From: Massospora cicadina
Lineage: Eukaryota; Entomophthoromycota; Entomophthoromycetes; Entomophthorales; Entomophthoraceae
Length of the DNA: 64,000 bases
Assembly: GCA_022478985.1 (NCBI GenBank)
Contig: JAKSZP010010599.1
Location: 1-64,000, forward strand
Reading direction: 5' to 3'
Shown here: piece by piece, positions 17,250 to 54,399 of the stretch
How the letters are laid out: each line of letters starts with the position of its first letter
Position numbering within the stretch: the first letter of the stretch is position 1
Program-made: the position numbers and the translations under genes
Notes under the pieces: generated by a model
Database searches by the model: none
What the model was told of the DNA's origin: nothing
Seen by the model: only the letters and a program-made list of their open reading frames with translations

Positions 17250-17279
17250 GGTGCGTCAGTCTTATGGACCTGTGTTCAT

Positions 17280-18440
17280 GTGGGCTGGTTGCCACAGGAG
17301 TGAAATTGGCAGAAGAAATATGTCAAACATGTTTCTCCTTCCTTTATGAACTTACCTTTGTTTAAAACTTTGATTCTGTGTTGGTGCTCAAAGATGAGGA
17401 TGTTTGGTTGGGCGGATATTTCCGCCCATTTGCGTCCCCAGTTGGGGCTATAACCAGGTCTCTGAGTATTATGCTTGAGGTGGTCAAGTTCCACCAAGGT
17501 AAGCCTGATTGTGGCTGTATTGGCAGTGTACTTACATGATGCGATATGTCAGGTTTTATTGATTAGTTCCTTTTTGAAATTTGTTAATGTTGAAATGGGA
17601 TCTGAAGTGAATGGGGCTGAGAATTATTGATTCATGGCCTTATGTTCAACCCATTTGGTTATTTTGGGTAATTTTATGTTTCATGGGTGTAACTTTCTCC
17701 AGGGTGACACCTGTGCATGGGTTCAGGCTGGTGATAACTGCACCAAAACAAGTCAGTGGTCGAAAAATTGACTTTTTTGTTGTAAATTTGGAAATTTTTG
17801 TTATTGGGATTACAGAACGAGGATGTGATCAATGCAGCCCATTGATATAAGCGTTCCCTCACGTATGTTGGGCCATGTCATGTGGGGAAGGAGTGGTGAT
17901 CTGAGGGGGAGGGCATCCTGTAGGCCAAGGGATGCCTTCATTGTGAGGAATTTGATGTGTCCCGGTGGGTATCCCCTGGGGTTCAGCCACTGGTCCGTGT
18001 CAGGGTTATCCCAGAAGTTAAAGTCACCCAATAGGATGGTATCTGGTGGGAGGGTGAGTATTGGAATAGTTTTGAGAAACAATTTTCTCTCAGCTGTGGT
18101 GCACAGTGCATAGCTGCATGCTATCAAGATTGTTTCCTCTTGGCATGTGATCATTGCTACCAGGATGCGGCCATGAAGGTATGACGAGGAGTTTGTAATT
18201 TTAAAATCTTTTGTTATTTCAGATGATCACCACACAGTGAGACGTCCATACTTATTGAGATGGTGAGACCCTAGCTGACCAGGATCCTTCTTCCCCTTGT
18301 AGACAGTGGGTTTCTTGGATGGCCAAGATGTCTACAAGGGGTTTTTGCAGGAAGTCCAGCTTTAGGTTTGGGACGTTTGAGACCTGGCTCCCGCGATATT
18401 TAGCATCCCTATTGACACTGAGGTGCCCGCGGCGCCTCAG
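17280..18440 (-). pseudogene. LINE-b ORF2 endonuclease (APE-type) domain remnant
   Basis: N-terminal part of ORF2. The AP-endonuclease motifs are recognisable: AIQETHCLQG (about 18300-18330), ILLGDFNFWDNPDTDQ with the GDFN active-site block (about 18000-18040), and HMTW followed by CIDHIL near the C terminus (about 17820-17890). The frame differs from the RT part, so at least one indel lies between. This domain normally nicks target DNA to prime reverse transcription. The end of the region (17276-17497) is a linker of unknown function. Confidence 0.82.
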
Positions 18441-19857
18441 GAGCTGTTGGGAGGGCCCTCTGGCCCAAACCCACCATGGCTCAATTTGGCCTTGCTCCGC
18501 ATCTGTACTCCAACTCTCTCAGTGACAATGTCAGTTCCCTTGATCTGACTCGATTTTGCACAGGAATTGCGGTTTTTGGAATTTTCATTATCTTTTCCTG
18601 CACATATCTCATGATGGTTCAATGTGAGGTGTTGATTGTGTTCTGTAATTTTGGGGTTCGAATTTGGAAAATTAAACACCACATTTTCTACCATATTGCG
18701 GTTGAATTGTTCCTCAAAGTATGCATGATTGATGCCACTTGGTGACTCAGTCAAATTGCTGTGAAAATTTTCAGCCTGGGCATATTGTTCTGTTTTTGGC
18801 TTGGTGAATATCCAAAATATCCTCTTGAATTTGCCTGGGGTTGATGGATGATTTTACGTGCACTGCTGCCTTAGCCGCTGCCTGCTTGCGGGCTTTTTGT
18901 GCCACTTTGCGTTGTTTATGTGTAACTGAGTCTATGATTGAGTAAAGTCCATCTTCACCCCAGTGGAATGGGTGGTGACCATTGATCATTCTGGCGAAGT
19001 TTTTGTTACTTTCGTCCATGGCTTCCTCATAGTAGTCTGCTTCCATTAAGCTCTCCTTCATGGGGCATGCATGTTCCTTGTGTCCCAATGAACCGCAGTG
19101 GTTGCATATAGGTGGTGCACGTTCCAGTGTAACTTGGAATGCGGATGACTGTCCCCCATCTGCAAAGTGAAACTCTGCTGTGCGGGGGATTCTTGATAAG
19201 TCATCTTCCACTTTGGGGAATGGGTTAATTACGGCGATAGCTTTGCCTGTGCACAGGGTTGGCAACAGGCGAAATTATTGTAATTTGAGTTGCATAACTT
19301 CTCCATAGGCTACAAGCACTTTGCGGAGCTCCTCCTTGATTATCTTACAAGGAAGGTTTGTAGGGCGCAAGTCAAATGAGATAAAAAAGTTTTCACTTTG
19401 TCCCATCTGGTGCGCGTGGTGTGCACTATTTTTTTGCCCTCAGGAAGGGAAATTTTGATGCAGACTTTTGCTGCAACCTCCGCTTCTTCAGCTGTTCCAA
19501 AACCAATATTGATCCAGCTGCAGCCCATGTTGTTGGTGGCGACATATACCGCGTGGGGGAAAAGGGGTGGCTGTGCCTCGCATGTTTTCTCCCACAGGGT
19601 CAGGGACTCATCCCCAAGGAAGATTCAGAGCCCATGCTCCACCTTTGAAAGGGGTTGTTACATTGGATATACATGTATTGATCTTGTTTTATAGTAAACA
19701 CCATAAACCCAGAAGGTGTCTGAGTTTGTGGTTTCTTGGTGGCTTGGGTTCCTGGTTCCCCTCCAGGGCGTTTTTTGCCCTTGGGTGCACCATTTTGCAC
19801 ACCTCTTGATGTGACGCTCACCCAGGTTGTATTAGATTTATTATCAAAATCGCCCAT
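18437..19857 (-). pseudogene. LINE-b ORF1: RNA-binding protein with CCHC knuckle
   Basis: Starts MGDFDNKSNTTWVSV behind a purine-rich leader. The middle reads DAVYVA-like (HAVYVATNNM), GCSWINIGFGTAEEA and HTTRTRWDKV, then EELRKVLVAYGEVMQLKL (an RRM-like segment), then CTGKAIAVINPF and the knuckle ICNHCGSLGHKEHAC (CX2CX4HX4C, 19106-19065). A Lys/Ala-rich basic stretch follows (QKARKQAAAKAA). Three or more frame breaks are present. By analogy with LINE ORF1 proteins it packaged LINE RNA. The knuckle and the YG segment are what link the OR1/OR2 retroposons to this protein. Confidence 0.85.
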
Positions 19858-20139
19858 CTCTCCTGTGTGATTATCAAATTTGCTGTTAGAATCAAATTGT
19901 AGTAATTAAAATAATTTTACAGGAAAGATAAGAAAAATTCTCTAATGTCTTTCTAATATGATATCAGTAAAAGCTGATGGTCTTATATAAGGCAACCATT
20001 GTTTAGACATAAGGTTGCACGATTGTCCGTTATTGACTTGGAGATTTTTTTGATCTTTTCGCTAGTTCCTTTTAAAGGTTTGGGGGTTTATCCTTCCATA
20101 ACTGTGGTTAGGTTAGAAGGTCATAGAGTAAATCCTCTT

Positions 20140-25830: not shown

Positions 25831-27126
25831 TGTTGTGAACTTTGCAATCTGCTACATCAGGCCTCTGCCAATGTGCCAGGCCACAAAGTATGAGGACCTC
25901 TGGTCCTTACTGTATCGCCTTAATAGGCGTACCAACCCCCTACAAGTCCATATCCAACCATTAACTCAGCAGATCAACAACTTCACCTTAGCGCCATTGG
26001 CCCCTTTTGGGAGTGCACCGGTGGTCCTCAGCCCCAATCCTTGGTGGTCCAACCCCTTAATACATCTCCCTTATGACCAATTGCCAGCCCCTCTTGGACG
26101 TGAACTGGCAAGTTCATCCTCATCTTAGGATCCATGGCTCCCACGCTATACCACACTCATTGCTTACGGCCATCATCCCATCGTTGTTGGCGGCTGGTAG
26201 GCCAAGTTTTCATTGGGAGTTTCTTGTAGGGATGAGGTATGGGAGCTGGCAGCGTTGGCCACTCCAGGCGCGTCACCCAACACCTGCCTTGGGGATCTCC
26301 TGTTCCATCTTTTACCACCAAGCTGCTTTTAAACAATAATAAAAAGATGGACAAAAGAGAGACCTTTATTATGAGGGAACTCACTATTTATAATTTTGAT
26401 ACTTCACCTATACAAATCCATCAGCATCCACTGCCAGAACCTCAACCAATTGTCTTCATTTTACTAAGCCTCATTCCCTAATAAACTGTCTTTCCCAAAC
26501 ACCAAATATTTAATTCAACACATCCTTGGTATCAGTTGCCAGTTTGTCATATGTAAATTACTATTATAAATTATTATTGAATATCCTCCCACATCAATCG
26601 CCAGTAATTAGAATCAGAGGCGGCAGAAATTACTCTTACTTGCTCTCAAAGCGGCAATCTTACATTCTGCTGACAATACAATTATCCTTGGCATAAGTCG
26701 CCAGCTATTCCCTAGATGATTAACTGATTGGACCATCCTTAGCATTAATCATCAGTAATCCTGATAATCCAACGTCAAAGATTGGCATTCCAGCATTAAA
26801 CATTAATCAAATTGAACGTTCAATTTATTATCAGTGTAAGTTGCTGTTAAATCCTCCTAATTTAATGTCAATAATTAATATATCATCCTCGGCCTTAGTC
26901 ACTGGTGATCAAAATACTTAGAAATGCTGTCAGGGATTGGCACAACAAATCCAGCCTCAGCAGAACCATTGAAATGGCTCGCCCAACTTAGATGGGGAGC
27001 ACAGTTTGGCACATATATCATTATTTATCATCAAAACCAGGTAACTGATCATTCTGCTGGGACTGACCACTCTTGACCCTAATTTTGGAAAATAGAAGAG
27101 GAATCCATCTAGCTAATTTACCAACA
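25831..27126 (+). repeat. G5 LTR copy I (5' LTR)
   Basis: About 1296 bp, beginning TGTTGTGAACTTTGCAAT and ending CCAACA. It aligns end to end with copy II (27310-28601) and, inverted, with copy III (51504-52975). The first 500 bp is open and reads VVNFAICYIRPLPMCQATKYE; the corresponding residues in copy II are NFAICYIRALPLCQATQYEE, so differences are conservative. The second half is A/T-rich with repeated CATC/CAGT words. Flanks TAGGT (25826-25830) and TAAGC (28602-28606, after copy II) may be a decayed TSD. Confidence 0.82.
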
Positions 27127-27309
27127 TTTCCTCCTCTTAACCAGATGGTATTCCTCCAGCATGATTTCACCTTCTCGGTGGGCCAAAATTACCTCAGCGC
27201 CCCTCATCCATGAGGCGCCAGGAATGTACCAGTGGCTTTCACCAACTCCTAATCATATCTTCAACTACTTGATCATTACGCCAGCGAAGCCCCAGGTAGT
27301 GAGCACCAA
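27127..27309 (+). mobile_element. G5 residual internal segment between two LTRs
   Basis: Only 183 bp separates the two G5 LTRs, so this element has lost its gag-pol or is a short non-autonomous form. The last bases (CCCCAGGTAGTGAGCACCAA) resemble the sequence next to LTR copy III (CTCCACAAGTGCCCCAC), suggesting that both are the element's 3' internal end. No convincing primer-binding site directly follows copy I. Confidence 0.6.
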
Positions 27310-27556
27310 TGTTGCGAATTTTGCAATATGCTACATTAGGGCTCTGCCATTGTGCCAGGCCACACAGTATGAGGAGTGCTGGTCCTTGCTGTTTCGCCTT
27401 CATAGGTGTGCCAACCCCCTGAAAATCCACGTCCAACCCACCAACTCAGCAGACCAACAACTTCACCTTTGCACAATTATCCCCTTTCAGAAGTGCACCA
27501 GTGGTCCTCAGCCCCCTTTCTGGGCGGTCCAACCCTTTTATTCTTCTCCCACATGA
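27161..27556 (+). pseudogene. open frame running from G5 internal DNA into its 3' LTR
   Basis: 131 codons open across the LTR border at 27310. It reads HEAPGMYQWLSPTPNH, then NVANFAICYIRALPLCQ and CWSLLFRLHRCANP. A second open stretch follows in another frame to 27857 (SHWGFLVELRYGSRQRWPLQ), matched by copy I near 26200-26280. I recognise no domain. It may be the C terminus of the last gene of the element, which would then overlap the LTR. Confidence 0.4.
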
Positions 27557-28601
27557 CCAATTGCCAGCTCCTATTGGGTGTTCACTAGCAAGTCCATCCT
27601 CCATCCTGGGGCCAGGGCTCCCACTCTATATTACCCTCATGGCTGATGGCCTTCAGCCCATCATTGTCGGTGGCCAGTTGGCCAGGTCCCATTGGGGGTT
27701 TCTTGTAGAGCTGAGATATGGGAGCAGACAGCGTTGGCCACTCCAGGCACATCTTCCCGTACTTTCCTTGAGGATCTCATGTCCTATCTTCTACCACCAA
27801 GCCGCTTTCATTAATCTAATAATAAAAATATGGGCAAAAGAGAGATCTTTATTATGAGGGAATAACAAATATTATACTAGGCTACTTCACTTATTCAAAG
27901 CACATTGGCATTCACTGCTAGAACCTCAACTAATCGTCTTCACTTTACTAAGCCTCATTCCCTGATAATCTGTCTTTCCCAAACACCAAATATTTAATTC
28001 AACACATCCTTGGTATCAGTTGCCAGTTTGTCATATGTAAATTACTATTATAAATTATTATTGAATATCCTCCCACATCAATCGCTGGTATTTAGAATCA
28101 GAGGCTTCAGAATCACTCTTGCTTTCTCTCATAACAGAATCCTTGACATTCTGCTGGAATTACAATTATCCTTGGCAAAATTCTTCAGTCAATCCTTAAT
28201 TGATAATTGATTGGACCATTTTTGGCATTAGTCATCAGTAATTCTGATAACCCAATTTTAAATTGGCATTCTGCCAATAAAAATTAGTAAATTAAACACT
28301 CAACTTATCCTCAGCATAAGTTTCTTGTAAATCAAAATTTCATATTAATAATTAAAAGATCATCCTTTACCTTATTTCTGGTGATCAAAACGCTAATAAT
28401 TGCTGTTAGAAGTTGCTCTCAACAAACCCCCCTCAGCAGAACCATTAAAATGGCTCACCCGACTAAATGGGGATCACAAATTGGCGCATATTAAGATTTA
28501 TATCATTAAACTAGGTAATTGATAATTCCGCTGGTAGTGAGCAATCTTGACCCAAATTTTATAAATAATAGGGGAGGAACCAATTAATTATTTTACTGAC
28601 A
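27310..28601 (+). repeat. G5 LTR copy II (3' LTR)
   Basis: About 1292 bp, beginning TGTTGCGAATTTTGCAAT and ending ACTGACA. It aligns with copy I over the whole length with many scattered differences, except for 27970-28085, which is identical to 26486-26601 over 116 bp. Confidence 0.82.
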
Positions 28602-29349: not shown

Positions 29350-29970
29350 GACAATTGTGATAAGTTAACTAATGGATCACAGAGCATCACTGGGCAATAT
29401 TAGGAAGTCTTGCTTTCTGGTAGGTGGGACTTTTGTTCATGTTTACAATCAATTTCAACCATGTTGAGGCCTTAAAATAGTCTTGACTATGACCCTAAGC
29501 ATACCAGAGCTCCTCTCAACTTCTTCTGGTAAACAAACAGGCCTAGTCCAAACCTTTGACAGTTATTCCTCTATTAGATAGCGTTATTAGCACCAAATCA
29601 AAATCAAAATGGAAAGATTCTGTGAAAGTTGTTAATTTATTATGAAATTCACTTATATATATAATATATTGGGGATTTGGGGATTTTAAGTAGAAATTGG
29701 TGTATAACAAGTCAATCTTCAAAAAAGGTAATTCTTTATTTTTATCATGGTTTCAGGGTTGGCGGAGTCCAGATCCTCAATGCTTGTGATCTTTGGGGTT
29801 GTCTCCACAGATTATACTATGGAATTCTTTTTATTTAATGGTTGTTTTTAAAGTTGCCTGACTCCAGTGGCTCCTAGCTCTTGCTGTTGCTCTCTTAGTT
29901 TGTTTTTTTTAATTAAATGTTATTATAAAATTAATTTGTTTCCCAATTAAGTAATTTTCATATAAAACTT

Positions 29971-31904
29971 TTCTTTACACTTAATATCACTTTAAGAAAT
30001 TTTTTTTAATAAAGCGTTTAATTTTCCACTGCCATCTGGCCACACCCATAAAAAAAATGTCCATGGATCCACCGCCTGCTGCTCCAATATGGGGTAGTGG
30101 TTTTCCACCGCCTAGCGTTTTCCACCCTGCAGCAAAAACATTTTCACAAGGTCAAATAGCCTGCCATCTACTTCAAACCGTTTTGTTCACCCACAGGAAT
30201 TAGTGCTCCACCTGGCGTGCATCCACTCTTATCACCCCATCCTCTCACCCTCCCTTGTACAATATCTGATATTGCCTATGTGATGATTATGGGCGATTAC
30301 TCCCATATGCAAACAATGCAATTATTAAATTAGACACTGCTGCATTTGCACAGGCTGGAATTATCAATTTCTACTGATTTAAAAACTATTTTAATATTGG
30401 CTTCCAGATAGAGGAGGATGCTGCAACAGTGGATTCTACTCCCTAATTTACAAAAACACTCCCATCCCTACCACCCAAACTTGCCTTCCTTCAGACACCT
30501 CATTAATGGTGTCCTTCACATCCCTCCCATCTCAACTACCACCTCACCTATTATATGATCAGTTAATGGCGGGGCTTCTGGCTTATGGGACACAGACCAA
30601 CCTTGTCTTCGCCGTTCCTTCTGGAGAAGAGCACCTTGATGTACCTCACGCCACTGCCACCATAGTCCCACACCACCCTGCCATAACCTTTTTTCCCATG
30701 CTTTTATTGTTGCAGCGCCTTAGCATTTCTTTTGGGCTTGGGTGGATAATGGTCACCAAATTTGTCCTTTCTGTTTCATACTTGATTATTCCAAAAAATC
30801 CAGCCCCCAAGCCACTTCCTCTGGTGTGGCCTTTAAGCCATATTCAGTGGATTCAAATGGGGCGTTTTGTTGCCCCTCCCACTCAACGCTCTTGTTCGAT
30901 GGGCTAGAGTGAGAAAGTGGCCTCCACCAAACCCACCCACACTATCCCACCTAATTTCACCCACACCAATAAGGAACAGGCCTGGACCACCATTACCACC
31001 CAAGCAGCCCATTTGACTCCTAACTAACCAAAATCTCCATCCACTATTCATGTGAACCAAGATCCATGGGACTTATTGGCCAAGATTGATGAGTCAGGCA
31101 ATGTAAACAATGAGGACTCTGGTGAACCTCTCAACCCCTTGATTGTATTTGGGCCAAATTTTGCATTTTTTTTATTTTGACAAATCCCCATCTCCAAAGT
31201 GATTCACTCCTAAACCCAATGCCATACCCTACCAAAGTGACCACCAGCTCACCTTATCAGGGGTGGCCTCACCCCATCAGCCAATCCTACGCAAAGTGGT
31301 GGCCCAATCCATTTCTCTATACCACCAAGTGCTGAGCATAATTGAATTCCCCCCTAATTTCCCCAAAGCTGCATAGGAGGAAATCACAAAATTGGCCACT
31401 GAAGCCACTAATGCGGTCATGCATGTGGCACAACTAGCAGATTTCAACCCATCTGCTAAATTCACCTGACAAAGTATCACCAATTTTTCCCAACTTCCCA
31501 AAGACCACATTCAAGCTGAACACCATATAGCAGAATTTGTTGAAGCTGTCTACCAAGCTGATCTTGAGGAAGGTAACCAACTTTTCGTCTACCTCCACCC
31601 CCACCACGCTGATGCCCCCATACCATGGCTCTCCGCTTTTGTCCATTTCTACAATGACTTCAGTGATGCTGACCAGCTGAATATGTCTGTAGAGGAGCTG
31701 CCCGACCCTCCTCACCCTCTGCCATGGTGGGTTAGCGGTATACTGCTCCACGCCTCGTTGGAGTTTTATCTTTGGTTTTTTGGTATTTTTTGGTGGTTTT
31801 TTGGTTTTTTGATCCATTTGATTATTTCGTTCTGTTATTTTGCTCATTGAGTATTGGTAATGTCCATCCCCTGGTTGGCATACCTCAAATAAAATTTAAA
31901 TAAA
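29971..31904 (+). mobile_element. OR1-b: ORF1-only retroposon
   Basis: About 1.93 kb, plus strand. The leader (AAAACTTTTCTTT, then TTTAATTTTCCACTGCCATC) matches OR1-a. The 3' end reads GTCCATCCCCTGGTTGGC followed by CTCAAATAAAATTTAAATAAA, the LINE-type tail. Flanks GTAATTTTCATATAAAACTT (29951-29970) and GTAATATTCTTATAAACTT (31905-31923) look like one TSD with a few changes. No RT or endonuclease is encoded. Orientation is opposite to OR1-a. Confidence 0.8.
30049..31850 (+). pseudogene. OR1-b protein remnant, ORF1-like with knuckle
   Basis: Starts MSMDPPPAAPIWGSGFPPP. It then has YGRLLPYANNAIIKLDTAAF, a stretch LPSDTSLMVSFTSLPSQLPP and LYDQLMAGLLAYGTQTNLVF (RRM-like, parallel to EELRKVLVAYGEVMQLKL of LINE-b ORF1), then WVDNGHQICPFCFILDY (CX2CX4 with Tyr in place of His, about 30735-30785), a Ser/Ala-rich linker, NQDPWDLLAKIDES, and near the C terminus HIAEFVEAVYQADLEEGNQ and HHADAPIPWLSAFVHFYND. 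The last 30 residues are hydrophobic, partly from a GGTTTTTT-type simple repeat at 31775-31815. Several stops and shifts. RNA-binding role is inferred. Confidence 0.65.
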
Positions 31905-31923
31905 GTAATATTCTTATAAACTT

Positions 31924-34780: not shown

Positions 34781-35028
34781 AAATGTCCTCTTCTTAAAAT
34801 TAAAATTTAAAATTTATTCAGGGAAGGCTGACCAAGGGATGGATACTTCCAATAAGACACTAAGAACATAAACTTCAGTGAGAGGAGGGCACCCCAGAGA
34901 AGCAAAATCTATCTCCTGTTGTCAGTGGGAACGCCAAGAGAATGGGAGGGGGTAACCTGTGCAGGGGCAGGCGCCACTATTGAGAACGTATGTAGGAAAG
35001 GGTCTGAAACTATGAACCAAACCAGGAA

Positions 35029-38000
35029 CTAGGATGAGACCAACTGACGGCGACGTGGTGGGAGGTACCCAAAAATCCACGCTTGAAAGTGGTCCACTAA
35101 GTGCGACCGGAACTGGTGTACAGCTTCTTGAAGGGTGGGGGTGGAGCCTGAGATAGCATCCAAGACAATCGTGTGTATAGTCCGCATAGCGAATGTGAAT
35201 ACCAAGGCATGGAGGGAGGGTGGAAGAGGGGAAGCCATCGATAAAGCAAACATGTCCTTAGACAGGCTTAAGAGCTGTGCCTGATCCTGGCGAAACAGAC
35301 GTTGCATCTCACACCATATCACTTTAGATGGAGTACACTCTTCCAGGAGGTGAACCAGCGTTCCATACAGGCCACACATGACACTGGATGAGTGCAAAGT
35401 GTTAGAGCGTTTGGCATTATGGTATACCCCTCTAAAGAAGCGCCACACATGGGAACAAATATGCGGTTGCAGAAGAGGGTGGTGGTCATACTTCCAAATG
35501 GCTTTCTGGGTATCTAGGGGGTAGGGGATGTCCACCATGTCCAGGTAGTCCATCCTGGCCATGGTAGGGGGTCGCATCGGTATCACTTTATTCAGAATGG
35601 GGAGACCCTGTACCTCCTGGGTGAACTAAGGCGAGGGGCGCCTCCTCTGGGTGGTGTGCCCACAGATGCAAATTCTCCACTCAGCACTCTACATGGAGAG
35701 GAGAATTCTCTTGAAGTGGGACGACGTCCCATGTGGGCCCGCAGCAGAAGGATGTGAGGCAAGTTACTTTAACAGAGAGTGGGGATGGGAAGGATTGGTG
35801 AGGCACAGGGCGCGGGAGAAGTTGGAGCAGGATGCGCGAGACCAGTGCTGGGCTGAGATTGTAAGGTTATTAACGGCAGCGATCCAGATGCCAAGGATTT
35901 TGGCAGCATGGGCCTTAAAGTTGAGCAGGCCCATACCACCACTATGGCGAGGGCCAAACATGACATCCAGGAGCACCGGCAGTGGGCGGCTTACCAAAGC
36001 CACCCTTGTAGAAGGGCGTATAGTGACTTGAAGAAAAAAGGGGAAAAAGTGATGGCGTGGGCCCCAAACCAAACTTTAGAGAGGAGCATAGAGTTGGCAA
36101 GCACCACCCTGCCTGTAAGGGAGGTCTGACGGGCTTTGAGGGAAGCTATGCGTTTCATAATGTTGTCTAGGATATGGTTTTCCATCACCGTTGAGGAATA
36201 CCCTCCTACCTCCAGCCACACCCCCAAATGGCTGACAGGGCCAACAGTGGGGCTTGGCACAAAGGGTAGCACAAGCGGGGCAGAGTGGGGTGGGGTGGGC
36301 AGGGCAGGGTAACAAGCCCCATGCGCTAGTTGGCGAGTCTGTTAGGAAAGAGGGCGCTGGGGCCCAGCGGGATTGATACTGACCAAGGAGAACAATTTCG
36401 GTTTTAGAGGCGTTAAGTGCTGCATTACTTACCCTGGAGTAAACCAGGATAGTATCTTCAAGCGCGCGTGCATCATGATTTTTAGGCACCACAACCACAC
36501 ATTCATCAGCAAACGCCAACATCTTGACAGGGGCTTAGCCTTTCACAAGGACCCCAGAAAGGTGGGTATTCACATTCTGAAGAAGTGGGTTAAGGCTGAA
36601 GTTATACAAGAGTGGGCTAAGAGGGTCCCCTTGGCGCATTCCCCTTTGAGGGCGGACTACATCCGTGAGGAATCCAGGGACATGCACAGCCATTGTAGTG
36701 GATTCCGTTAGCAACATCACCCAATTAATGAAGCGGTGGGGGAGGCGGAACTTGTGGAGGCAGGCTCTGAGGTATTCCCATTTTACTCTATCATAGGTCT
36801 TCTGTTGGTCTAAAAATACAAGTGCTCCAGAAGCCATGGATTGACAGACATTGGCTACGGCGTGTATATTATCCCAAATTGACCTTTTGGGGATAAAACC
36901 GAATTGCTCAGTGGAGATGAGGGCAGAGGCAGCAACCCCTAGACGGTTAGCCATGATTTTTGTAATTTTTTTTGTTTCTGTGTTAGTGAGAGAAATGGGG
37001 CGCCAGTTGGCCAAGTCTAGATTATCCCCTTTTTGTACAATGTAATCGTGAAGTCCTCTTGCCCTCCAGGCAGAAGGCGCGTTTCCAGAAGGAATTGGTT
37101 CAGAGAGGCAAGCAGCAAGGAGGAAAAATCTTTGAAATACTTCTCATAGAACTCATAAGGGATGCCATCTGGGCCTGGGCAATTTCAATAAAATGCACCG
37201 CAAACGTCAGACCAGAGCTCATCCCAAGTAATCAAATTAATCAACTCTGGGAATTGGCAAATGGTGCAGATGTGTGCACTTTTGAGAAAATTTTCCATTT
37301 TCAGCTGGCAGAATTGGATTGGATTGATACAATTTGGAGTAATATTTTTGTATTTTGATTGCCACTTTGGCTGGCATATCCGCGACGGAGTGATCTGGCC
37401 TTCACACCTGTGTGCAGGCCAAGCTCTGGCATGATGCGAAGAATTTTTGAAAAAAGTAAGTGGAGCATGTATCACCCGCTGTAATATGCTTTGCTTTATA
37501 CTGAACACAAACCCGATGCTTGTGTTGTCTCACCAGTGCATTGAGGCAGGCGGACACTTCTGCCCACTTGTGACCCCAAGCTGGGCTGTAGGCAGCAGAG
37601 GGTACGTTAGACTCCAGGTGGTCCAACTTTGCCAATGTGCGCAAAATGACTGCCGAGGCAGCCCATGAGTGGCAGGAGGAGAAGTGACGAGCCTGGCAGA
37701 TCATATTCACTTTTAAGTTTGACTAGTTGAAAATTGGATCTGTACATTATGGTGTGACAAACTCTGGAGCCGAGGTCACAAATCTCGCCCATGAGGAAAT
37801 CTTGGTGACACAATTTTTGCTGGGCAGAGTTTGCACCATTTTGGCGCCTGGGCTGCTGGATTGGATAAACTGAAAGAAATTGATACCATCCTGTGGTTGG
37901 AGAAATCAATTTTTGTCATGGTGAAGTGGGAAATTTGGGTTTGAAATTTCAATGGCGCGATAATAAGGTTGATGCGGGACATGGACCTTAGCTGGCTGTT

Positions 38001-38600
38001 GTGTACATGGGGGCGCGACATGTTAGAGAGTAATGGGGCATGGCATGAAAAAGTATCGAACAACCCAAGGGTGGCTTTGAGAATGCAAATTCAATTTGCT
38101 TCTGGGGGGTGTAGCCGATGAGGGCCAGAAGTCTGTGGATGGGTTCATCCAGAAGTTCATGTCGCTAACAATGAACAGGTTGGGGGTAGCAGAAGGGAAC
38201 GGGCAGCCAAGAAAAATTCCCAATGTTCACATGCACAGGTTGGGGTATAAATGTTAACAACCGCATGAAATTCATCTTCCATGAAAAGGTGATAACAAGG
38301 ACGCGGCTGTTTAGGTATGTATTAGAAGAATAAATTTAAAACTACTGTTCACACAAACTAGCAACCCACAGTGCATAGACCAGAAGGATAGGGAGGGGAG
38401 GAGTATGGTTTGCCATGCTTCCTCATTACCGCGCAGACAGTGGGTTTCCTGAATGGCCAGGATGTTATGGGTAAATTATTTTGTAAAAAACACAATTTCC
38501 TATCCTGGGATGGTGAGGCCTTGAGTCCAGCGATGTTCAATGTCCCTAAAGTAAAGGCTCCCCCATCGCACCTTAGTTGCGAGGGAAAGGACACCATGCC
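35029..38600 (-). pseudogene. LINE-c ORF2: endonuclease, reverse transcriptase, zf-RVT, broken
   Basis: Endonuclease: TLGTLNIAGLKAS and AIQETHCLRG (about 38420-38560), VSDMNFWMNPSTDFW in place of GDFN (about 38150), and a C-terminal part to about 37700. RT: MANWRPISLTNTETK, GFIPKRSIWDN, FLDQQKTYDRVKWEY, RGMRQGDPLSPLLYNFSLNP in one frame (37014-36535), then after a stop in the same frame the catalytic motif is FADE instead of FADD (36513-36502). The C-terminal region is split over several frames (36272-35764) and ends at 35586-35029 with a degraded zinc finger (SVMCGLYGTLVHLLEEC, first Cys lost). Two catalytic sites are damaged, so the copy is dead. Confidence 0.9.
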
Positions 38601-38624
38601 CTTCAGCCTTCTCTTTTTAGTACA

Positions 38625-39880
38625 TCACTGCGCTGAAGTGCAGGTGTTCTGTGATACAGAGTAATTGTCAGAGTGGGAAGCCTTGGCAGTGGGGTTCGCG
38701 TTGGCTTTTGACTTCACTTTTTTCCCTGCTGTGGGCCAAGTTTTTTGCAGTTTGTGCATTTGTGGAGCACCATCACTTGGAGGTGGAATTTCTGCAGGAT
38801 TGCTAGTGCGCAACTCAGTCCCAATCGATGCTTGGGTGCATTGGTCAGGTGAAACCAATTTGTCCATCAGGATTTCAGCTTGGGTGGTCCAATTGGCTTG
38901 GGCTTCCAAATATGATTGGTTGAGGGACTCACGGGCTGCTTCTGCTGCAAATGTCTTGATGTCCTCCTGAGTCTGGGCTGGTGGGATAGCATATGCGGCT
39001 TCAGCTACCTTCTTGGCTGCCACCTTGCGGGCCTGTTTGGACTTCTTACGCTCTTGTGGGGACACTAGTTTTACTTGGATGTAGCAGCCTTGCGCTTCCC
39101 ATGGGAATGCTGTGTCAATGTCTAGTGGTGGTTCAAAGTGGGCTTCTGCACCACACATTGCATCTGAGAGAAATTCATTTCTATGAATACCCTCCTTGGT
39201 GGGGCAGGTATGGGCCTTGTGGCCAAAAGCGCGACAGAACGTGCAGATGTGGGGTGCGCTATACACGGTTACCCTGAATGGATGGGTGTTTTGCCCATCA
39301 ATTTCAACATAAGTGGTGTTTGGGATTTATATCAAATCCTCCACTATCCCCGCGGATGGGGTGAGAACAGCAATCGCTTTACCTGTGCACAGGTTTGGCA
39401 TTAGCATAAAACACTGCATTTTAAAGGATTGTATTTCGCTGTATATGGTGAGGCCAGCCTTCAGGTGGTGCTCAAGCATGGTGCACTTGACCGTTGTGGG
39501 TAGGATTCCAAAAGTCATGAAAATTTGGTTAATTTAGTCCAGCGGGTGCGCTTCATTTTGAATACTCATTGACTGTCCAGGAGGTCCACTACTACGCGCA
39601 CTTTTGTGGCTTCATCTGCCGCTTCCTTATTTTGAAGCCAAGATCCAGCCAACCACGTGACATGGAGTGGGGTGCGACATACACCGCGTCTGGTAAATGT
39701 GTGTGTACATCTCCACAAAACATCTCCCAAAGCGCCATTTGCTGGATATCCAGGAAAACATGCACCCAATGTTCCACCGATAATAGTGGTTTGGAGTGCG
39801 GCGTATTGATGAAATGGTTGCAGCACACTTGCCAGGCCAAAATTTCTGGGGAAATGGTAACTGCCAGTTTTTATTAAGTT
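38625..39880 (-). pseudogene. LINE-c ORF1: RNA-binding protein with CCHC knuckle
   Basis: N-terminal part (39840-39566) reads HLPDAVYVAPHSMSRGWLDLGFK and DEATKVRVVVDLLD, matching LINE-b ORF1 (HAVYVATNNMGCSWINIGF). CTGKAIAVLTPSAGIVEDLI (39400-39327) matches CTGKAIAVINPFPKVEDDL. An open 213-codon stretch (39266-38625) has the knuckle ICTFCRAFGHKAHTC (CX2CX4HX4C), a basic region (RKKSKQARKVAAKKVAEAA) and a Ser/Pro-rich tail. Broken between these parts. Confidence 0.88.
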
Positions 39881-40074
39881 TATTTATTCCGCTGGACTCA
39901 CCGGAGCGTTTACAAAATTTGGTTGATGTGGGGCCAACACCTGTGCCCTAAACTTTACTCGCCCAACAGCTCCCCAATATTCGGCGCCAACTAATCTCCT
40001 TTATGATATTATCAAACTTTACCTAGACTTGAAATGAATTTGTTGCAAAAGTGTTTGCAATGAGAGAGAAAAAG

Positions 40075-40820
40075 AAATGTCCTCTTCTTAACTCTTGTAC
40101 TGGTGGTAAGGCTTTGATAAAAAAGGTACGGCATTCCAGTGATAATTATTTGAACTTTCCCTTTAAGATGCCATAATCAAGTCTAATTCTAAAAATGTCT
40201 GAATACTGATGAAAGAATTCTCTGAGTTTACTTCCTTCTTGTATAGCTGGCTCTTGCAGCCCAATCTTGTCAATGTGGGAATCGTCAAATAATGATTCAA
40301 TTCTGGCTATGCATGCATCTTCACTTTAGAAATGGGTTGACACTTCATGATACTAACAGAATGTTTGACAATTCTCTCTAATAAGCTTAAACTTTCCTTT
40401 TGTATGTTGAATTGTAAAGGTACAGGTATCCCAGAGGGTTCCTTATCTCTAAATCCTTTAGTACAAATGATCTTGCTCATCGTCTATTCTTAGTATGGAT
40501 GCTTATGTTAACCAGCATAGCCTTTTATTCTCCAAATTAGTAAATCCATCTTCTTTCTGGAGCTTAAGGGCAAACCAGATGTTGATAATTGGGTCTGACC
40601 AAACATAAAAAATTGACCAAATAACAATACTCCCAAACCTTCTATAAACCTCACATAACCCTCTCCCTGATGCCTTTATCTCACAGCAGATTTATTCATA
40701 TTGATACACCATCAGATATTTCACCATGCAATTACCTTATCTTTCTTTCGCTTTGATACCTAAATCAAAATCAAATAGATTTTAAAAAAAATACAAAACA
40801 CGACCTCTTGATCAAGCCAT
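40075..40820 (-). pseudogene. G7 upstream remainder behind LINE-c
   Basis: The G7 pol frame picks up after the LINE-c TSD: minus-strand MPYLFYQSLTTSTRV at about 40090-40140 precedes the RT block at 34.78 kb. The rest is A/T-rich with no protease or LTR motif that I can support. It ends near the start of OR1-c. Confidence 0.45.
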
Positions 40821-40821
40821 T

Positions 40822-41499
40822 GCTTACCAATGTTGATGAAATTGACGCCTACTGCCCCAGACTGGGGTGGTGGTGTGCCGCCATCTGGTGTCTTTCAGCC
40901 GCCGCCAAAGCGCGCCTGGGCTGGCTCTGATAGCCCTCCCAACGCTACCAGGCGTTATGTCTCCCCTTGGGACTTGGCCCACCACCTCGCAAGCTCTTAG
41001 GTGGTGCTTAGAGCCCTTTGGTGCTCCCACAGAGCAATTTGCATTTTGGCCTCTGGGTCAAATATGGGAATCTCTTCCCATATGCAAGCGCGGCCATCAT
41101 CAAGATGACCACGGCGGTTTTCAAACCCACCAGCTATAATAACTTCTGCCCCTTTGTAAGGAGAGTGTCTATAACTCTCATGTTCCCAGAGTGGCAGTGT
41201 GAGGTGCACCAGGCTAACGCCAGGGAACTAGCCGTTAATGCCAAAGTGATTAGAGCCCAGCAGTTGGTGTAGATCAATAACAACTTAGGCATAAAAATGC
41301 GAATTCTATAATAAAAACCTCATAAAAGGCAACGCGGTGCACATATCAAAAGGGGCTAAGAGACCCAGGTTGGAGGGAACCTGGGCAAACAAATGATTAA
41401 TGAGGGGAGAGCTGCAATATACTTGTAATGACAAGGGTAATGGAGTGCAAGACCTCCTCAAAGAGGTTTGCGCACAGGAGCGTTCAGAATATCATAAAA
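40822..41499 (+). mobile_element. OR1-c, first part: N-terminal OR1 coding segment
   Basis: Plus strand. Begins near 40835 with MKLTPTAPDWGGGVPPSGVF, matching the PPPAAP...GAPPPSVF start of OR1-a. YGNLFPYASAAIIKMTTAVF (about 41065-41130) matches YGRLLPYANNAIIKLDTAAF of OR1-b, and FCPFVRRVSITLMFPEWQ follows. About 250 bp to 41488 is longer than in OR1-a/b and matches OR1-d and OR1-e. The segment ends in the ATATCATAAAA duplicated by OR2-d. The element continues at 42080 and again at 48618. Confidence 0.7.
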
Positions 41500-42079
41500 T
41501 TTTAAAAACGTAAACAGTAAAGGTTTATTTGGGAAGTTGACCAACAAGGATGTTGGTCAGGGAAAACATATTTAAGCTCAAATGGGGGAATAGGGGTTAT
41601 GCCGCAGTGGGCCCAAGCACCAACTCACCAATAGGGCAATACTGTCATCTGATTTAGTTATATAGCCCAAAACTGACTTCACTTGAGTTATCGATTAAAG
41701 TTGGACTTGAACTGTGCGCATTATTTTGTAAATAGAATGGTTTTTGAAACCCCGTTCCTTGACAAACTAAATCGAACCAACCACGTTTATTTGGTAGATG
41801 GTTAATTTTAACGCCTGGCTTGACTTCAGGGGCTGGGCGTTTGGCACACCCCTAGTCCTAACCTGGGCATATTTTGCCCAAACCCAGCGTTGGTCCAGGG
41901 TTTGCCTCAGGTCAGGAAGGTCCTGCAGCTTCACCCTCTGGGCCTCCTGGCGCCCAGCCTTATCTTTGGGGTTGATCCCCACTATTATGTTATGTGCGCA
42001 TGACATCTTTAAGGGGTACTTTGCCTCGGCTTCCACTATAGAGCTGATGCAGCAGCACCAGTCAAGCTGCAATTAATTT
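41500..42079 (-). mobile_element. OR2-d: retroposon insertion with 11-bp TSD inside OR1-c
   Basis: A 580-bp minus-strand insertion flanked by identical ATATCATAAAA at 41489-41499 and 42080-42090. It has one open frame of 101 codons (42072-41770) with IIVGINPKDKAGRQEAQ and DLPDLRQTLDQRWVWAKYAQV, ending GSI, then an untranslated part and the tail CCTTGTTGGTCAACTTCCCAAATAAACC (reported here as its two halves: CCTTGTTGGTCAACTTCCC, then AAATAAACC) near 41520-41555. The copy is 5'-truncated compared with OR2-b/OR2-e. TSD plus tail identify target-primed insertion. It is the best preserved OR2 frame in the window. Confidence 0.85.
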
Positions 42080-42540
42080 ATATCATAAAACCTTTGACCA
42101 CCATTGGCACCCAGCTCCCAGATGAGGCCACTTTGGTGGTCCAGTTCGCCGGGTTTCCTTCCTCCTTTCCCCTGAACGCCTCTGCCATGAGCTCACAGAG
42201 GGTTTGGCCATTTATGGCTCAGATCTCATGTTGCAGTTCGTGGTGCCCCATGGGGTGGATCATCTGGAAGACCCTCATGACTTTGCGACAATCTGCCCAT
42301 TTCATTGTGACACCCACCTCGCAATTCCCCCCTGCACCATGATCAGGTCCGCCCCTGATCATCCTTTTTGGGCGCACGTTGAAAATGGCCACGCCATCTG
42401 CCCCTTGTGTTTTGAGCTCAATCACTAAAAGTGCAAGTGCAAGTGCCATATGGCTTCTGCTTCTGCTTCTGCCACTTCCAACACTCCCCCCTCTGGCACC
42501 ACCCCAGCAGCTGCCTCACCCCAATCTTCAAATGGGGCGT
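42080..42540 (+). mobile_element. OR1-c, second part: RRM-like segment and zinc knuckle
   Basis: The OR1 frame resumes: LPDEATLVVQFAGFPSSFPL (42120-42180) matches LPSDTSLMVSFTSLPSQLPP of OR1-b. After a frameshift ELTEGLAIYGSDLMLQFVV and PHGVDHLEDPHDFATICPFH follow. The knuckle ICPLCFELNH lies at 42396-42425, with Cys codons at 42399 and 42408 and His at 42423; the fourth Cys falls after a TAA, as KCKCKC. Thus the spacing is CX2CX4HX4C, as in LINE-b ORF1 (ICNHCGSLGHKEHAC). A Ser/Ala/Thr/Pro-rich linker follows and is cut by G2 at the target site GGCGT. Confidence 0.72.
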
Positions 42541-43046
42541 TATTGTGAATTTAATATGACCTGACGATAAGTCTATGGTCATTCAGCGAAATGAATGGAA
42601 TCCACTGGAATTAAACTGGTAATGGTAATATAAGCACTTCAAAATGAGGCGATATTGGATTGTTGGTAAATCGCCTCCAATTGGGCGTTGTGAGATTAAT
42701 GAACGAAGATTTGATGAAACCAATGAGATACGGAGAATTGAGTTACTAAGCCATGTAAGTAATATAATCCAAAATTATTAGAATATAAGCAGGATGAGAC
42801 AAACAAGGAGAGGGGGTTTTTTGAAGTAGAAGAAGAAGAGTGAGCGCGAGCAGGGAATATCCGCTATATATTTTATATTAAATAAAAGTAGTGTAGTTGG
42901 GTCAATTACCTCCTATTCTTATATATATCTAGTTATTATGTTTAATCAAGGTAAATGATCTCCATATCGTTTGGCCGTTGCACAGTGGGCTAAACCCTGC
43001 ACGATTCATTTGGCGGTAATAGACCATATCCGCCAAAAAGTTAACA
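42541..43046 (+). repeat. G2 5' LTR
   Basis: 506 bp. Begins TATTGTGAATTT (the 3' LTR has TGTTGTGAATTT, so the terminal TG was changed to TA) and ends GTTAACA. It contains an 8-bp inverted repeat GAGGCGAT / ATCGCCTC (42646-42653, 42670-42677) also present in the 3' LTR, a TATATA-rich promoter-like region near 42870-42930 and AATAAAAG near 42883. Confidence 0.95.
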
Positions 43047-43047
43047 G

Positions 43048-43063
43048 TGGTGCTCACTACAGG
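43048..43063 (+). promoter_or_regulatory. G2 primer-binding site
   Basis: TGGTGCTCACTACAGG begins one base after the 5' LTR. It is nearly the same as in G3 and G1, so the three gypsy families appear to use the same or a related tRNA primer. The tRNA was not identified. Confidence 0.75.
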
Positions 43064-43135
43064 TGGCCCATTGATCAACTAATAACAACTTCTTCAATTA
43101 AATCTATGGCGCAACCATCTCGCTTTGATGGCGTA

Positions 43136-44250
43136 CTACCCCGGTGATTGAACTATCTCACTATGGGGAACTAAAGCTTTCCCTGGATAACTTACTTCAG
43201 GCGCAAAAAACGCTTTTTCATGAGAATAAAATTATTACTGAACAGCTCAATCATGCCTTCCACCAACTGCTCCTGGTAGGTGACCATGCTAACCAGCTTG
43301 CAAATTTCTTGAGCAGCATGATGGAGCAGCTAGACTGTGCGGAGTACAATTTATATAATGTTGTTAAAAAAAGAAGTCAGCAGTGACAGGCTGCCCTCAT
43401 TTAACTGAGATAGTAACATACATGGATTTTTCAAGTGGTTCAAGTTTGCCATAGAGGGGGCTTCTGATCAATAAAAAGCCAAACCGTTGTTAGCTGTGTT
43501 GGATGTTTCCAGTGCTGATCAAGTTATTTGTTATCTTAAAAACAGTACTGTAGCTTACCAAGTGGTGAAGGAGACTGTAATTCGCCTGTTTGGGGACAAA
43601 GCGAAAATGGCTCAGCGCAAAGAAGATTTTTTAGCAATATCATTTTCTAAAAAATGAATCTTTAACACAGTTTGTGGAGCGATTCACTAATGAGGCTCAT
43701 GTATTGTTGGGTGAAAATGTCTTATCTAATGAGGAGTGGGAATAGCAATGATGGAGGCTATCAAGCCCTACCGCGAATTGCATAATGCTATGGTGTGCAC
43801 CCTTCAGGAGGATGCGGAGTTACTCAAATCATCCATCAATTACATCTTCTATCCGCCACCTTTAGTGCTCCCAATGTGGAGTGGAAGTATCCTGTATCTG
43901 CTATGGATACTTCACAAAATAAAGGATCCCACCAATATGGGGGTAATCGGTGGGTCGCTCCTCGGACACTTAACTCATGGGTGGGTCCTCTACGTCCCTA
44001 TTATGGTCAAACCGCTTATCCTTGGGCCCATAATAAACCGTGGTTCAATAGTAGACCTAGATCTTCTGGGGTGATTCCAAGACGAGTGCTGGTCCCAAAC
44101 ACTTGTTTTTTGTGTGGCCAACCAGGTCATTATGCAGTTAGCTGTTGGGCCAAACCAAGGGTCCACAAAGTATTTGTTGTCTCATATGAACAGGGAAAGG
44201 GTGATCGGAGTAGAGACAGGATGCTCTGCTTCCACTAATTCAATTGTAAT
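43136..44250 (+). pseudogene. G2 gag with CCHC knuckle
   Basis: Three or four frame pieces. N-terminal: a helical, Leu/Gln/Asn-rich stretch (ELKLSLDNLLQAQKTLF, EQLNHAFHQLLL; 43144-43383), then a capsid-like middle (VIRLFGDKAKMAQRKEDF at about 43580) and a Tyr/Trp/Pro-rich part. The nucleocapsid knuckle is CFLCGQPGHYAVSC (CX2CX4HX4C, about 44104-44145). Several stops separate the parts. Confidence 0.8.
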
Positions 44251-44610
44251 TGTCCCTGATGTACAACATGAATCACCCTGTTTCAGCCCTGGGGCACCCT
44301 ATGAGGTATTACTATATGAATAGATCCCTTACCACCTTTTGGCCTCAAGTTGAGGAAGAGACCCCAATGATGCAGACATAGAGTTTCGCCAAGACGTGGA
44401 TAAGCCATATGCCTGGCAGATCCTTACGCGGAATGGTACAATTGGCGGTGACCCCTCTGCATATGTTGCAGCTTTGGAGGGAGTGGAGGTGGCTATTCCT
44501 GTAGAAAAAATTGCCCAAGAGTATCCTCATGCTGGGGCTGGTATGCACACTTTTTGAATAATCATACGCCTTTGAATGTTTATGTATAAAACACAAAAAG
44601 TTCTTCTTAT

Positions 44611-45102
44611 TTGGAATGCACCTATTGTGAGATATTTGTACAGAATACCAAAATTTGGGCGATCATAGATACAAAAGCTCCTGTCAATATAATATCCACC
44701 AAGATTGTGGCTAAGCTTCCACTGAAGCCAGATGTGGACCACATAGTAGTGTATGGAACTTCGGGGGCCCATAGTACTGTGTCAGAAGGCACATATAGCT
44801 CATTGCCCTTGAGGTTTGGCTCTGTTGGCATATCTGCTCCAGCTGTGGTGTTGCCTAATAACCATTATGACATGTTGATTGAGGCTGCATTTATGCGGCA
44901 CTTTGGGGCTGTGGTTAATATGGCAGATGAAACCATCAGTATACTGGGACAACAGATCCTTATCTATTTTACTTCCCGCGGAGTCCCAGAGGACCCAATC
45001 CGCTCTGGACAAATTAATCTTGCTTATAGCAATAGTGTGATTCCTGTAAAATATTTGACGGATGAAGTGGAGGACCTGAATGCTTCCAAACCAGATCTAT
45101 GA
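44611..45102 (+). pseudogene. G2 aspartic protease, active site altered
   Basis: 164 codons open with WAIIDTKAPVNIIS; the expected DTG has Lys for Gly (AAA at 44674-44676). Downstream PNNHYDMLIEAAFMRHF is the second conserved region of gypsy proteases. Then a linker reaches 45480, including ANLQKEVMKVWRHQVVAYL, which is similar to G4. Confidence 0.85.
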
Positions 45103-45639
45103 GTACAAAGGGATTCCGCTACGAGCTGCAAATGCTCGGACTATCCTTCAGGGCATCAGGTCATAATTGGGACAGAGCTCGAAATTGATATTCTGGGAGG
45201 TCTGTATGGAGAGGTTGTGGGGCCTTATCACCAATTGCGGCTCAAACCACATGTGGCTCCTGGGTTACTGCTACCAGGGCAGGGGGAAGTGAAGGTGTTG
45301 ATAGCAAATCTGCAGAAGGAGGTGATGAAGGTTTGGCGGCACCAAGTGGTGGCTTACCTGCACCTGATCTCTATTGATGAGGTCCACCAGGTACATGACT
45401 TTGGTTTGTGGGAAGATCTCAGCTTGCCCTAAAAACCCCCCTCAGCGTAATGACAGTGTTTCCGCGAGAGGCATTAAATGGTCTATTGGAAGATCAGAAG
45501 GACAGGGTGATGGATCTGTTTAAGAAATATTGCAGCATTTTTGCAACCAATGACCACAACTTGGGTTGCGCTCGTAGGGTTGTGCATTGGGTGGACATGG
45601 GAGACCACCCCTATCAGGCCATGACCTATCCACCGCTCA

Positions 45640-46880
45640 AAGGCAGCAGAAGAAGTTGTATCTGCAGAAATAGATACCTTGGTGGGATAGGGAATGTTGG
45701 AGCCGTCAAAAAGTCCTTGGGCATCTCCGGTGCTAATTGTAAAAAAGAAAGATGGCTCCAATCAAGTAGTAATCAAATATCAGAAGCTTAACAGCGTTAC
45801 GAAAAAAGATTTGTACCTGCTCCCACAAATTGATGACACTTTAGATCGGTTAGGTGGGTCAAGTATTTCTCGGCTATGGACTTGATATTGGGGTACTGGA
45901 AGATTGAGTTGCCCATGGTGGAACAAGAAAAGTGTGCTATAATTACCACAAAAGGATTGTTCTAGCCTACGCGTATGCCACAGGGTTTATGTAATACCCC
46001 GCTATATTTCAGCAGGCTATGGATACTATTTTGAGCGACCTAATGCTGTCTTAAATTCTTGTCTACCTTGACAGTATCAACGTATTTTTGCGGACATTCA
46101 CGGAGCATCTTGAACACCTGGAGCAAGTATTCTGCCACCTAGCTGAAGCTAATATCAAGATTAAGCCCCAAAATGCCACTTTATTAAAGAACAATTGGAA
46201 TACCTAGGCTTTGTGGTGGACTTCAAAGGGCTTAGTCCACAGCTGGCCAAAGTGGAAGCTATCCACCAGATGACTCAGCCAAGCAATAAGCAAGATATCC
46301 AGGTGTTCTTGTGGATGGTCAGTTACTACCCGCGGTTCATTCCCACTTTCGCTGTATTGGGGCTCCACTATTTGAGCTCCTTAAAAAACGCTGCATTCAC
46401 CTGGACAAATCGACGTCAAACCACTTTTGATGTATTACAAAAAGCATTGGCTAACGCGCCTGTTTTGCAATACCCCAATTTTGAAAAAGAGTATATTGTG
46501 CAAACAGACGCTTCACTTTCTGCTTTAGGGGCTGTGTTATCACAAAAAGACAATGACGGTGTGGAGCACCCAATTGCATATTGGGGCTGCAGTTTAACTG
46601 GCCCTGAACGGAATTACACCATAAATTAGCGAGAGTGCTTAGCGCTGATTTATGCATATAAACAATTCTGGGTTTAACTCAATGGGGTGAAATTCAAAGT
46701 GGTAACAGATCATGCCTTCTTGCGCTGGCTACAGAATCTGCAGGTTCCTAAAGGGCGACTAGCGTGATGGGCGTTGAAGCTCTAAGCTTATGATTTTGAG
46801 ATCACGCATCAGCCAGGGGCAAAGCATCAGAATGAGTACTGTCTTTATCAATTACCCACGGTTGCCATTACAGCAGATGT
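45640..46880 (+). pseudogene. G2 reverse transcriptase and RNase H, broken active site
   Basis: RT: SPWASPVLIVKKKDGSNQVV (about 45715-45770), YFSAMDLILGYWKIEL (shifted frame), RMPQGLCNTP, then VYLDSINVFL where YxDD is expected (YLDS, 46064-46075). Thumb: EYLGFVVDFKGLSPQLAKVEA, RFIPTFAVLG. RNase H: IVQTDASLSALGAVLSQ and VEHPIAYWGCSLTGPE (46195-46626), then VTDHAFLRWLQNLQVPKGRL. At 46758-46800 the normal RWALKLQAYDF reads with TGA for Arg and TAA for Gln. Loss of the second RT Asp means it cannot polymerise. Confidence 0.92.
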
Positions 46881-46889
46881 GGCAGATAA

Positions 46890-54372: not shown

Positions 54373-54375
54373 AAT

Positions 54376-54391: not shown

Positions 54392-54399
54392 GAACCTGC

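Follow-up and report, generated by a model that had tools for sequence, protein, structure and literature searches.

SINEs are short and non-coding and have a Pol III-derived head. For stringent LINEs (UnaL2 and others), the sharing of a 3' tail with a SINE is described as going together with recognition by the partner's reverse transcriptase (RT) (PMC4176376). The mammalian HAL1 elements are presented as LINE-derived and non-autonomous, encoding the ORF1 protein only (PMC5753468). In the fungus Magnaporthe oryzae, the telomere-bound MoTeR2 is reported to have no RT and to share its 5' and 3' ends (860 bp and 77 bp) with the RT-bearing MoTeR1, its unique part being credited there with no obvious function (PMC7367193). 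The trypanosomatid elements L1Tc/ingi (autonomous) and NARTc/RIME (non-autonomous) share a functional 5' end, Pr77, characterised as a promoter with a ribozyme, and NARTc and RIME are stated to have no coding capacity (PMC8190864). In Blumeria, LINE ORF1 sequences known as EKA occur at high copy, with an RT downstream in one of the 34 full-length fragments reported, and are read as degenerate copies together with co-opted genes or effectors (PMC4641428); a non-autonomous retrotransposon encoding a peptide is also reported from this fungus (PMC6022647). Within the literature that we searched, mostly open-access, no ORF1-only LINE satellite outside mammals was named among the top papers.

Massospora cicadina, an entomophthoralean fungus parasitic on cicadas, is described as carrying 6.3% L1-type LINEs, unlike its relatives; of the entomophthoralean genomes compared, it is reported as the only one rich in LINE sequence (PMC10515909). 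We analysed a window of 64,000 nt from this species (GenBank assembly GCA_022478985.1, contig JAKSZP010010599.1, positions 1 to 64,000 of the forward strand). From the letters of the window, an initial annotation had proposed three copies of a retroposon, OR1, that would encode one long protein and no RT or endonuclease, end in the same tail as the neighbouring LINEs, be flanked by long target-site duplications (TSDs) and be mobilised in trans, with HAL1 as a parallel.

The focal OR1 copy lies on the forward strand at 29967-31898 and is a full-length member of subfamily A with a broken frame. Its boundaries were set from a TSD of 22 nt with 3 mismatches (29945-29966 and 31899-31920). It pairs with a second full-length subfamily A copy on the reverse strand at 3925-5825 (74.6% identity over 1995 nt), also with a broken frame and bounded by an exact TSD of 17 nt (5826-5842 and 3908-3924), so that the long TSDs proposed for these copies are borne out. 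The tail likewise stands: that of the focal copy, GTCCATCCCCTGGTTGGC plus an AATAAA-type end, occupies 31862-31895 (+) and matches the tail 18-mer without mismatch, and the tail core of the second copy (3943-3960, reverse strand) has one mismatch; at up to 3 mismatches the 18-mer has four matches in the window versus 0.10 expected. At its 5' terminus the focal copy bears a decayed hairpin (29980-29996, +) with a 5-bp stem, ATCACT in the loop and a minimum free energy of -1.5 kcal/mol. The remnant of a ~568-aa ORF1-like frame, with an RRM-like and CCHC part and a C-terminal part, was traced at 30057-31718 (+) by tblastn with the OR1-B protein (40-46% identity), the matches being spread over several frames. 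No ORF of at least 150 aa in the window's ORF list lies inside either copy, and the pieced-together frames contain 8 stops (29967-31898) and 6 stops (3925-5825), with frameshifts on top. The proposal of one long protein per copy therefore fails for both of these copies, and it holds for other copies, described below, in which the frame is intact.

The third copy is old. Its left pieces lie at 40822-42500 (+), split by an insert at 41156-42008, with matches to the OR1 protein and to its relative P0010 (see below) at 40830-41155 and 42013-42497; beyond a stretch bearing an LTR element, a right piece at 49120-49383 (+) matches OR1-B residues 451-539 (E 8.5e-7). Protein matches thus uphold the three-piece OR1 copy that had been drawn at 40822-49530, without the recognisable tail ascribed to it, none being found at its end at up to 3 mismatches. 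The insert of ~850 bp is 69-72% like parts of a stretch of locus L025, on the opposite strand. The LTR-like element inside the third copy (42534-48626) has direct repeats at 42534-43055 and 48109-48626 and two frames that resemble, by eye, a protease (44611) and an integrase (47057). Elsewhere in the window, 54009-59473 is bounded by LTR-like direct repeats of its own (54009-54364 and 59115-59473) and includes a frame at 58544 that looks integrase-like, again by eye, and 25831-28464 consists of two tandem copies of a ~1.48-kb unit whose blocks are 75-93% alike.

Two LINE families accompany OR1 in the window. A search with one of the window's LINE proteins matched a single protein, from M. cicadina (69% identity over 51%). 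A LINE-A copy of 5277 nt (34798-40074, reverse strand; tail core 34844-34827) comprises an ORF1 with CCHC, an RT and a C-terminus, and is bounded by an exact 17-nt TSD (40075-40091 and 34781-34797); its family's endonuclease piece matched Exo_endo_phos at E 0.012, below the cut-off. Another LINE-A copy is cut by the window edge (1-2490, +) and retains the RT, the C-terminus and a tail at 2454. A LINE-B copy, with approximate ends, lies at 14720-19930 (reverse strand), with its tail core, GCCCGTCCCCTGGTCAGC, at 14743-14760 (reverse strand); its tail is 84.8% identical over 46 nt to those of the OR1 copies L027 and L017. Among LINE-A copies TSDs score 14 or more in four of six, the highest of 30 cross pairs being 10, and a clear TSD is absent in the other two; clear TSDs were found for 2/7 LINE-B end pairs. 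The LINE-B family has at least 40 matches at 93% identity or more (all 40 scored, the best of 6298 candidates, window included) and could act as a helper. At the far edge, 63250-64000 holds the 3' end of a LINE that shares 49% identity with LINE-A at the C-terminus; it may belong to a third LINE lineage bearing the common tail motif.

In the M. cicadina assembly that was searched (1.47 Gb in 16,968 contigs), OR1 is present genome-wide as units of ~1.9 kb. The exact tail 18-mer occurs 2346 times (1168 + 1178), versus 0 + 0 for the reversed control. Twenty consecutive matches to the 18-mer, taken by this criterion alone (the first match, near a contig end, was omitted), comprised 15 OR1 loci, 4 LINE-A loci and one left unassigned, and at least 13 of the 15 OR1 loci extend to the 5' end region. 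When the genome was searched with the window OR1 copy (a 1.85-kb query, tail included) and 40 of 8260 candidates were scored, 37 spanned nearly the whole query and 36 had alignments that took in the tail core; both counts include the window itself. For 29 of 32 OR1 tails the 5' end was located, and with a TSD defined by a score of at least 12, 21/29 ends have one (median 17 nt), versus 0/812 mismatched flank pairs; a clear TSD is absent in the remaining 8. The duplications directly flank the OR1 units, and the insertion sites are varied. In units with a TSD, 1853-1928 nt separate the hairpin motif from the tail, an interval that accommodates the two UTRs, the 3' one short, and a single frame. 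Because these parts fill the ~1.9 kb between the TSDs, there is no room for an RT. OR1 comprises at least five subfamilies, 48-75% alike, all with this 1.9-kb layout.

The TSDs and the A-rich end are those of LINE-type, target-primed insertion, and the RT of its own that an autonomous LINE would possess is missing from OR1. As in a HAL1-like half-LINE, both endonuclease and RT are absent, given the TSD-bounded units of ~1.9 kb and a protein without a Pfam RT domain. The initial annotation was right on this point: the units hold one frame and no RT or endonuclease, and a check for an RT downstream of OR1 found none in what was searched, with 37/40 matches spanning the unit and TSDs directly at its flanks. 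In the 3' flanks of OR1 at two loci, L030 and L040, we observed a tRNA-like short repeat (GGGGTGGAAGGCGAGTTGGTA... GGTTTGATTCC) with an A-rich end, perhaps a tRNA-derived SINE, whose tail is unlike that of the local LINEs.

Intact OR1 frames of ~568 aa are found at loci outside the window. Among 14 loci taken by protein match from the best matches (L029-L042), the frame is open from the ATG to the normal end or beyond in six, of which L029, L038 and L041 end as expected (L038 is without its 5' end), whereas in L030, L035 and L036 the final part is shifted. Subfamily B is young; in older OR1 copies the frame is broken. Between subfamilies, dN/dS was 0.41 (A-B, 36 pairs) and 0.30 (B-C, 27 pairs), for frames that were picked by tblastn and are biased towards conserved ones; the other 8 of the 10 between-subfamily comparisons were saturated and gave no ratio. 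In all ten, differences at third positions exceed those at positions 1 and 2 (for B-D2, 307 at third positions versus 210 at first and 170 at second ones). Within subfamilies dN/dS was 0.36-0.85, as expected because copies decay after insertion. Substitution patterns thus point to old constraint on the OR1 protein.

Relatives of the OR1 protein are few. A profile search, in which the best 8000 word-sharing candidates were scored, returned 43 proteins, all from M. cicadina except P0010, an intact relative of 587 aa with 39% identity over 94% of the OR1-B protein. P0010 comes from a 1857-nt contig of another dataset with the source code lgn, which we take to be Logan. No Pfam family fits the OR1 protein, RT included, and a PDB sequence search with P0010 found nothing. 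Pieces of OR1 are present as annotated M. cicadina proteins. One M. cicadina record, P0011, entered as DNA topoisomerase 2, opens with ~100 C-terminal residues of OR1, which reflects an erroneous gene model or else the exonisation of an OR1 end.

Profile comparison indicates that the OR1 protein is a distant homologue of the LINEs' own ORF1. With hhalign, the OR1 profile matched a LINE ORF1 profile built from seven LINE-A and one LINE-B sequences at a probability of 96.4 and E 1.1e-9 (a single comparison), ~27% identical over 153 columns and collinear across the RRM-like stretch and the CCHC knuckle. Independently of the profiles, the OR1-B protein alone found the window LINE-B ORF1 by tblastn (E 3.6e-4). 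By both methods OR1 possesses the LINE-type ORF1 of a HAL1-like half-LINE. In the eight LINE copies whose ORF1 region was read (7 LINE-A, 1 LINE-B) no OR1-type ORF1 was present, and LINE-A and LINE-B each carry one of their own with an RRM-like part and CCHC. AlphaFold models were poor (pLDDT 49 for OR1 and 38 for LINE ORF1). In a fold search with the OR1 model, most of the best 50 of 673 PDB matches are RRM proteins by title, and no match reaches E 0.001 (best 0.035); we treat the RRM-like nature of the stretch as a lead.

The LINE tails at 2454, 14760, 34844 and 63289 are variants of the OR1 tail motif, which is present in all 14 OR1 loci picked by protein. Consensus tails were built from copies not fetched by the 18-mer, namely 17 OR1 copies on one side and four LINE-A copies plus the more distant LINE at 63289 on the other; the loose pattern used to find tails missed the LINE-A copy at 34844 (which reads ATCCATCCCTTGGTCAGC), and it was left out. 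The two consensuses agree at 16/18 core bases and at 31 of the last 46, a level that 0/100,000 shuffles reach, versus 32/98 for the bases immediately upstream. The claim that OR1 and LINE tails are alike beyond chance is thus confirmed for the consensus of sampled copies. Consensus tails of five OR1 subfamilies match LINE-A (the LINE at 63289 being counted with it here) and LINE-B alike, at 26-29/36 positions. LINE-B had been considered as the specific helper on the strength of the 46-nt match to L027 and L017, and this was dropped, the tails being about equally near to LINE-A and LINE-B.

The predicted energy of the tail's own hairpin was unremarkable (z 0.03, -0.86 and 0.52). A candidate compensatory change in the tail (CCA..TGG, CTG..CAG) was also rejected because CpG deamination explains the CG/CA/TG variation at the two dinucleotides: 49 tail-like matches vary in this way, with combinations that do not pair among them. 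This variation suggests CpG methylation and deamination in M. cicadina.

A likeness at the 5' end formed no part of the initial annotation and is added here. In both OR1 and LINEs the first bases form a pyrimidine-rich run, after which comes a hairpin presenting a UCACUU-type motif in its loop, and the likeness between them is confined to ~40 nt. The stems differ by family (TTGCAA/TTGCAA in LINE-A, GCTCAAA/TTTGAGC in OR1-B, TGCTCAG/CTGAGCA in OR1-D2), and the arms match within an element, not between families. LINE-B keeps the run and the motif; its 5' stem is mostly weak, ATAAC/GTTAC being commoner than the full GTAAC/GTTAC stem, which is found in 2/10 ends.

Register-free folding was applied to 24 ends, comprising all those seen of LINE-A (6), OR1-A (4), D1 (2) and D2 (4), two of three OR1-C, four of the similar OR1-B and two of ten LINE-B. 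In twenty the predicted fold places the motif in the loop; the exceptions are two OR1-A ends (A_W3m and A_L026), one OR1-B end (B_L012a) and one of the two LINE-B ends folded (LB_L055). The native mean of -5.92 kcal/mol compares with -3.06 kcal/mol for 480 between-family chimeras, and 0/3000 permutations were as low; chimeras of LINE-A and OR1 halves gave -3.83 and -1.21, versus -6.02 and -6.45 for the native hairpins. An earlier test, with the register set by hand, took ten ends: a single one each from LINE-A and OR1-B, plus those A, C and D ends that are better preserved. W29, W3m, L026, L012b and L022 were left out for their decayed stems, and the remaining LINE-A and B ends because they nearly duplicate those used; 66/70 pairs formed versus a mean of 57.4 after swapping, and 1/20,000 swaps reached 66. 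When each of six families was represented by a single end, the count was 41/42 pairs, which 4/720 permutations reach. Alignment A3 gives no common pair table because the stems lie at different distances from the motif, and no Rfam family matched in the six OR1 or LINE loci searched. With the 5' likeness added to the tail, OR1 shares both termini with LINE-A at least.

We consider it very probable that OR1 is a non-autonomous, HAL1-like half-LINE that makes an ORF1 protein of its own and borrows a LINE ORF2 in trans. An ORF1-only element that ends like the complete LINEs beside it most likely borrows their copying enzyme, and the HAL1 parallel drawn at the outset is strengthened by the remote homology of the OR1 protein to LINE ORF1. 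From these features we infer that OR1 uses LINE ORF2 in trans, that its protein acts in cis and that the hairpin has a role. The OR1 RNA of ~1.9 kb would run from the 5' hairpin through an ORF1-type RNA-binding frame to a short 3' UTR ending in the LINE tail. Its protein, composed of an RRM-like stretch, a CCHC knuckle and a long C-terminal part, would coat its own RNA in cis; such cis action is probable because selection would hardly have preserved the frame over such a time if the protein were freely shared. A LINE-A- or LINE-B-type element would supply the ORF2 protein, with its endonuclease and RT; this protein would recognise the shared tail and begin target-primed reverse transcription. 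The shared 5' hairpin may be a second terminal signal, acting in initiation, packaging or cDNA completion; a precedent for a functional shared 5' end is Pr77 of trypanosomatids, as described (PMC8190864). A more ambitious reading sees OR1 as a long-lived and diversified clade of coding satellites of fungal LINEs, with satellite and helper tied by the 5' hairpin and the 3' tail and with a cis-acting ORF1 under selection. We advance it tentatively, as falling somewhat short of an even chance, and rate it slightly lower than we otherwise might because so few LINE-B ends keep the full stem. If it holds, a hairpin with a UCACUU-type loop on changing but matching stems would be a new LINE cis-element, needed for the copy to be packaged, initiated or completed.

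Other origins of OR1 were weighed against the half-LINE reading. Homology between the OR1 and LINE ORF1 proteins would also be seen if OR1 copies had arisen, by internal deletion or truncation, from an unsampled autonomous LINE with an OR1-type ORF1, with no separate satellite lineage, and half-L1 elements are reported to have arisen repeatedly from L1 in mammals (PMC5753468). We nevertheless think this unlikely, as the 1.9-kb layout is common to at least five subfamilies, whose divergence shows selection on the protein, 37 of the 40 scored copies span the unit, and the eight LINE copies read in the ORF1 region bear a different ORF1. Nor do LINE-A and LINE-B need to borrow an ORF1, each having one with an RRM-like part and CCHC, which makes it quite improbable that OR1 and the LINEs are mutual partners in a two-part retrotransposon, the OR1 protein serving LINE RNAs in trans, even though one kind of 5' hairpin on both RNAs and long-term constraint on the OR1 protein would suit such a partnership. 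TSD-bounded mobile units, conserved non-coding ends and many decaying copies are hard to reconcile with a family of LINE ORF1-derived host genes maintained for the host's own use, a proposal made for the powdery mildew EKA genes. Co-option of LINE ORF1 copies is described in Blumeria, where, according to the same account, AVRK1 and AVRA10 lost the CCHC part that OR1 keeps (PMC4641428); despite this precedent, and the pieces of OR1 annotated as M. cicadina proteins, one of them joined to a topoisomerase II gene model, a host-gene origin seems to us highly improbable.

As a half-LINE, OR1 is of a known kind, represented by HAL1, MoTeR2 and the tail-sharing SINEs; what is notable is that it is non-mammalian, has at least five deep lineages and shares both ends with its presumed helper. 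Like HAL1, it offers an ORF1 protein only, derived from a LINE, and is non-autonomous. Unlike HAL1, it has a fungal host, a specific 3' tail and a shared 5' hairpin, its subfamilies are deep, and across the 153 aligned columns its ORF1 shows ~27% identity with the ORF1 of the local LINEs; descent from mammalian L1, which defines the HAL1 clade, does not apply to an element whose 43 protein relatives, among the best 8000 candidates, are from M. cicadina bar P0010. MoTeR2 is similarly fungal, RT-less and joined at both ends to an RT-bearing partner, whereas OR1 is dispersed over varied insertion sites, shares only short ends (~40 nt of 5' likeness) and has a constrained ORF1 homologue. The 3' tail shared with a LINE recalls the LINE-dependent SINEs, but OR1 is 1.9 kb long, codes for a ~568-aa protein and has no Rfam match. 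With L1Tc/ingi and NARTc/RIME it has in common a 5' end carried by autonomous and non-autonomous elements alike; unlike NARTc and RIME, it codes, and no Rfam family was recognised in the six OR1 or LINE loci. The Blumeria EKA sequences resemble OR1 as LINE ORF1 sequences at high copy in a fungus, most with no RT found downstream, and differ in being read as degenerate copies or co-opted genes.

The OR1 family resides in one of the largest fungal genomes. If our reading is true, half-LINEs with a selected ORF1 are no mammalian peculiarity. Constraint on an ORF1 that has no ORF2 would separate the functions of a LINE by evolution, with ORF1 acting in cis and ORF2 open to borrowing, and the 5' hairpin would offer a compact signal, open to experiment, for the final stages of LINE insertion, which are poorly understood.
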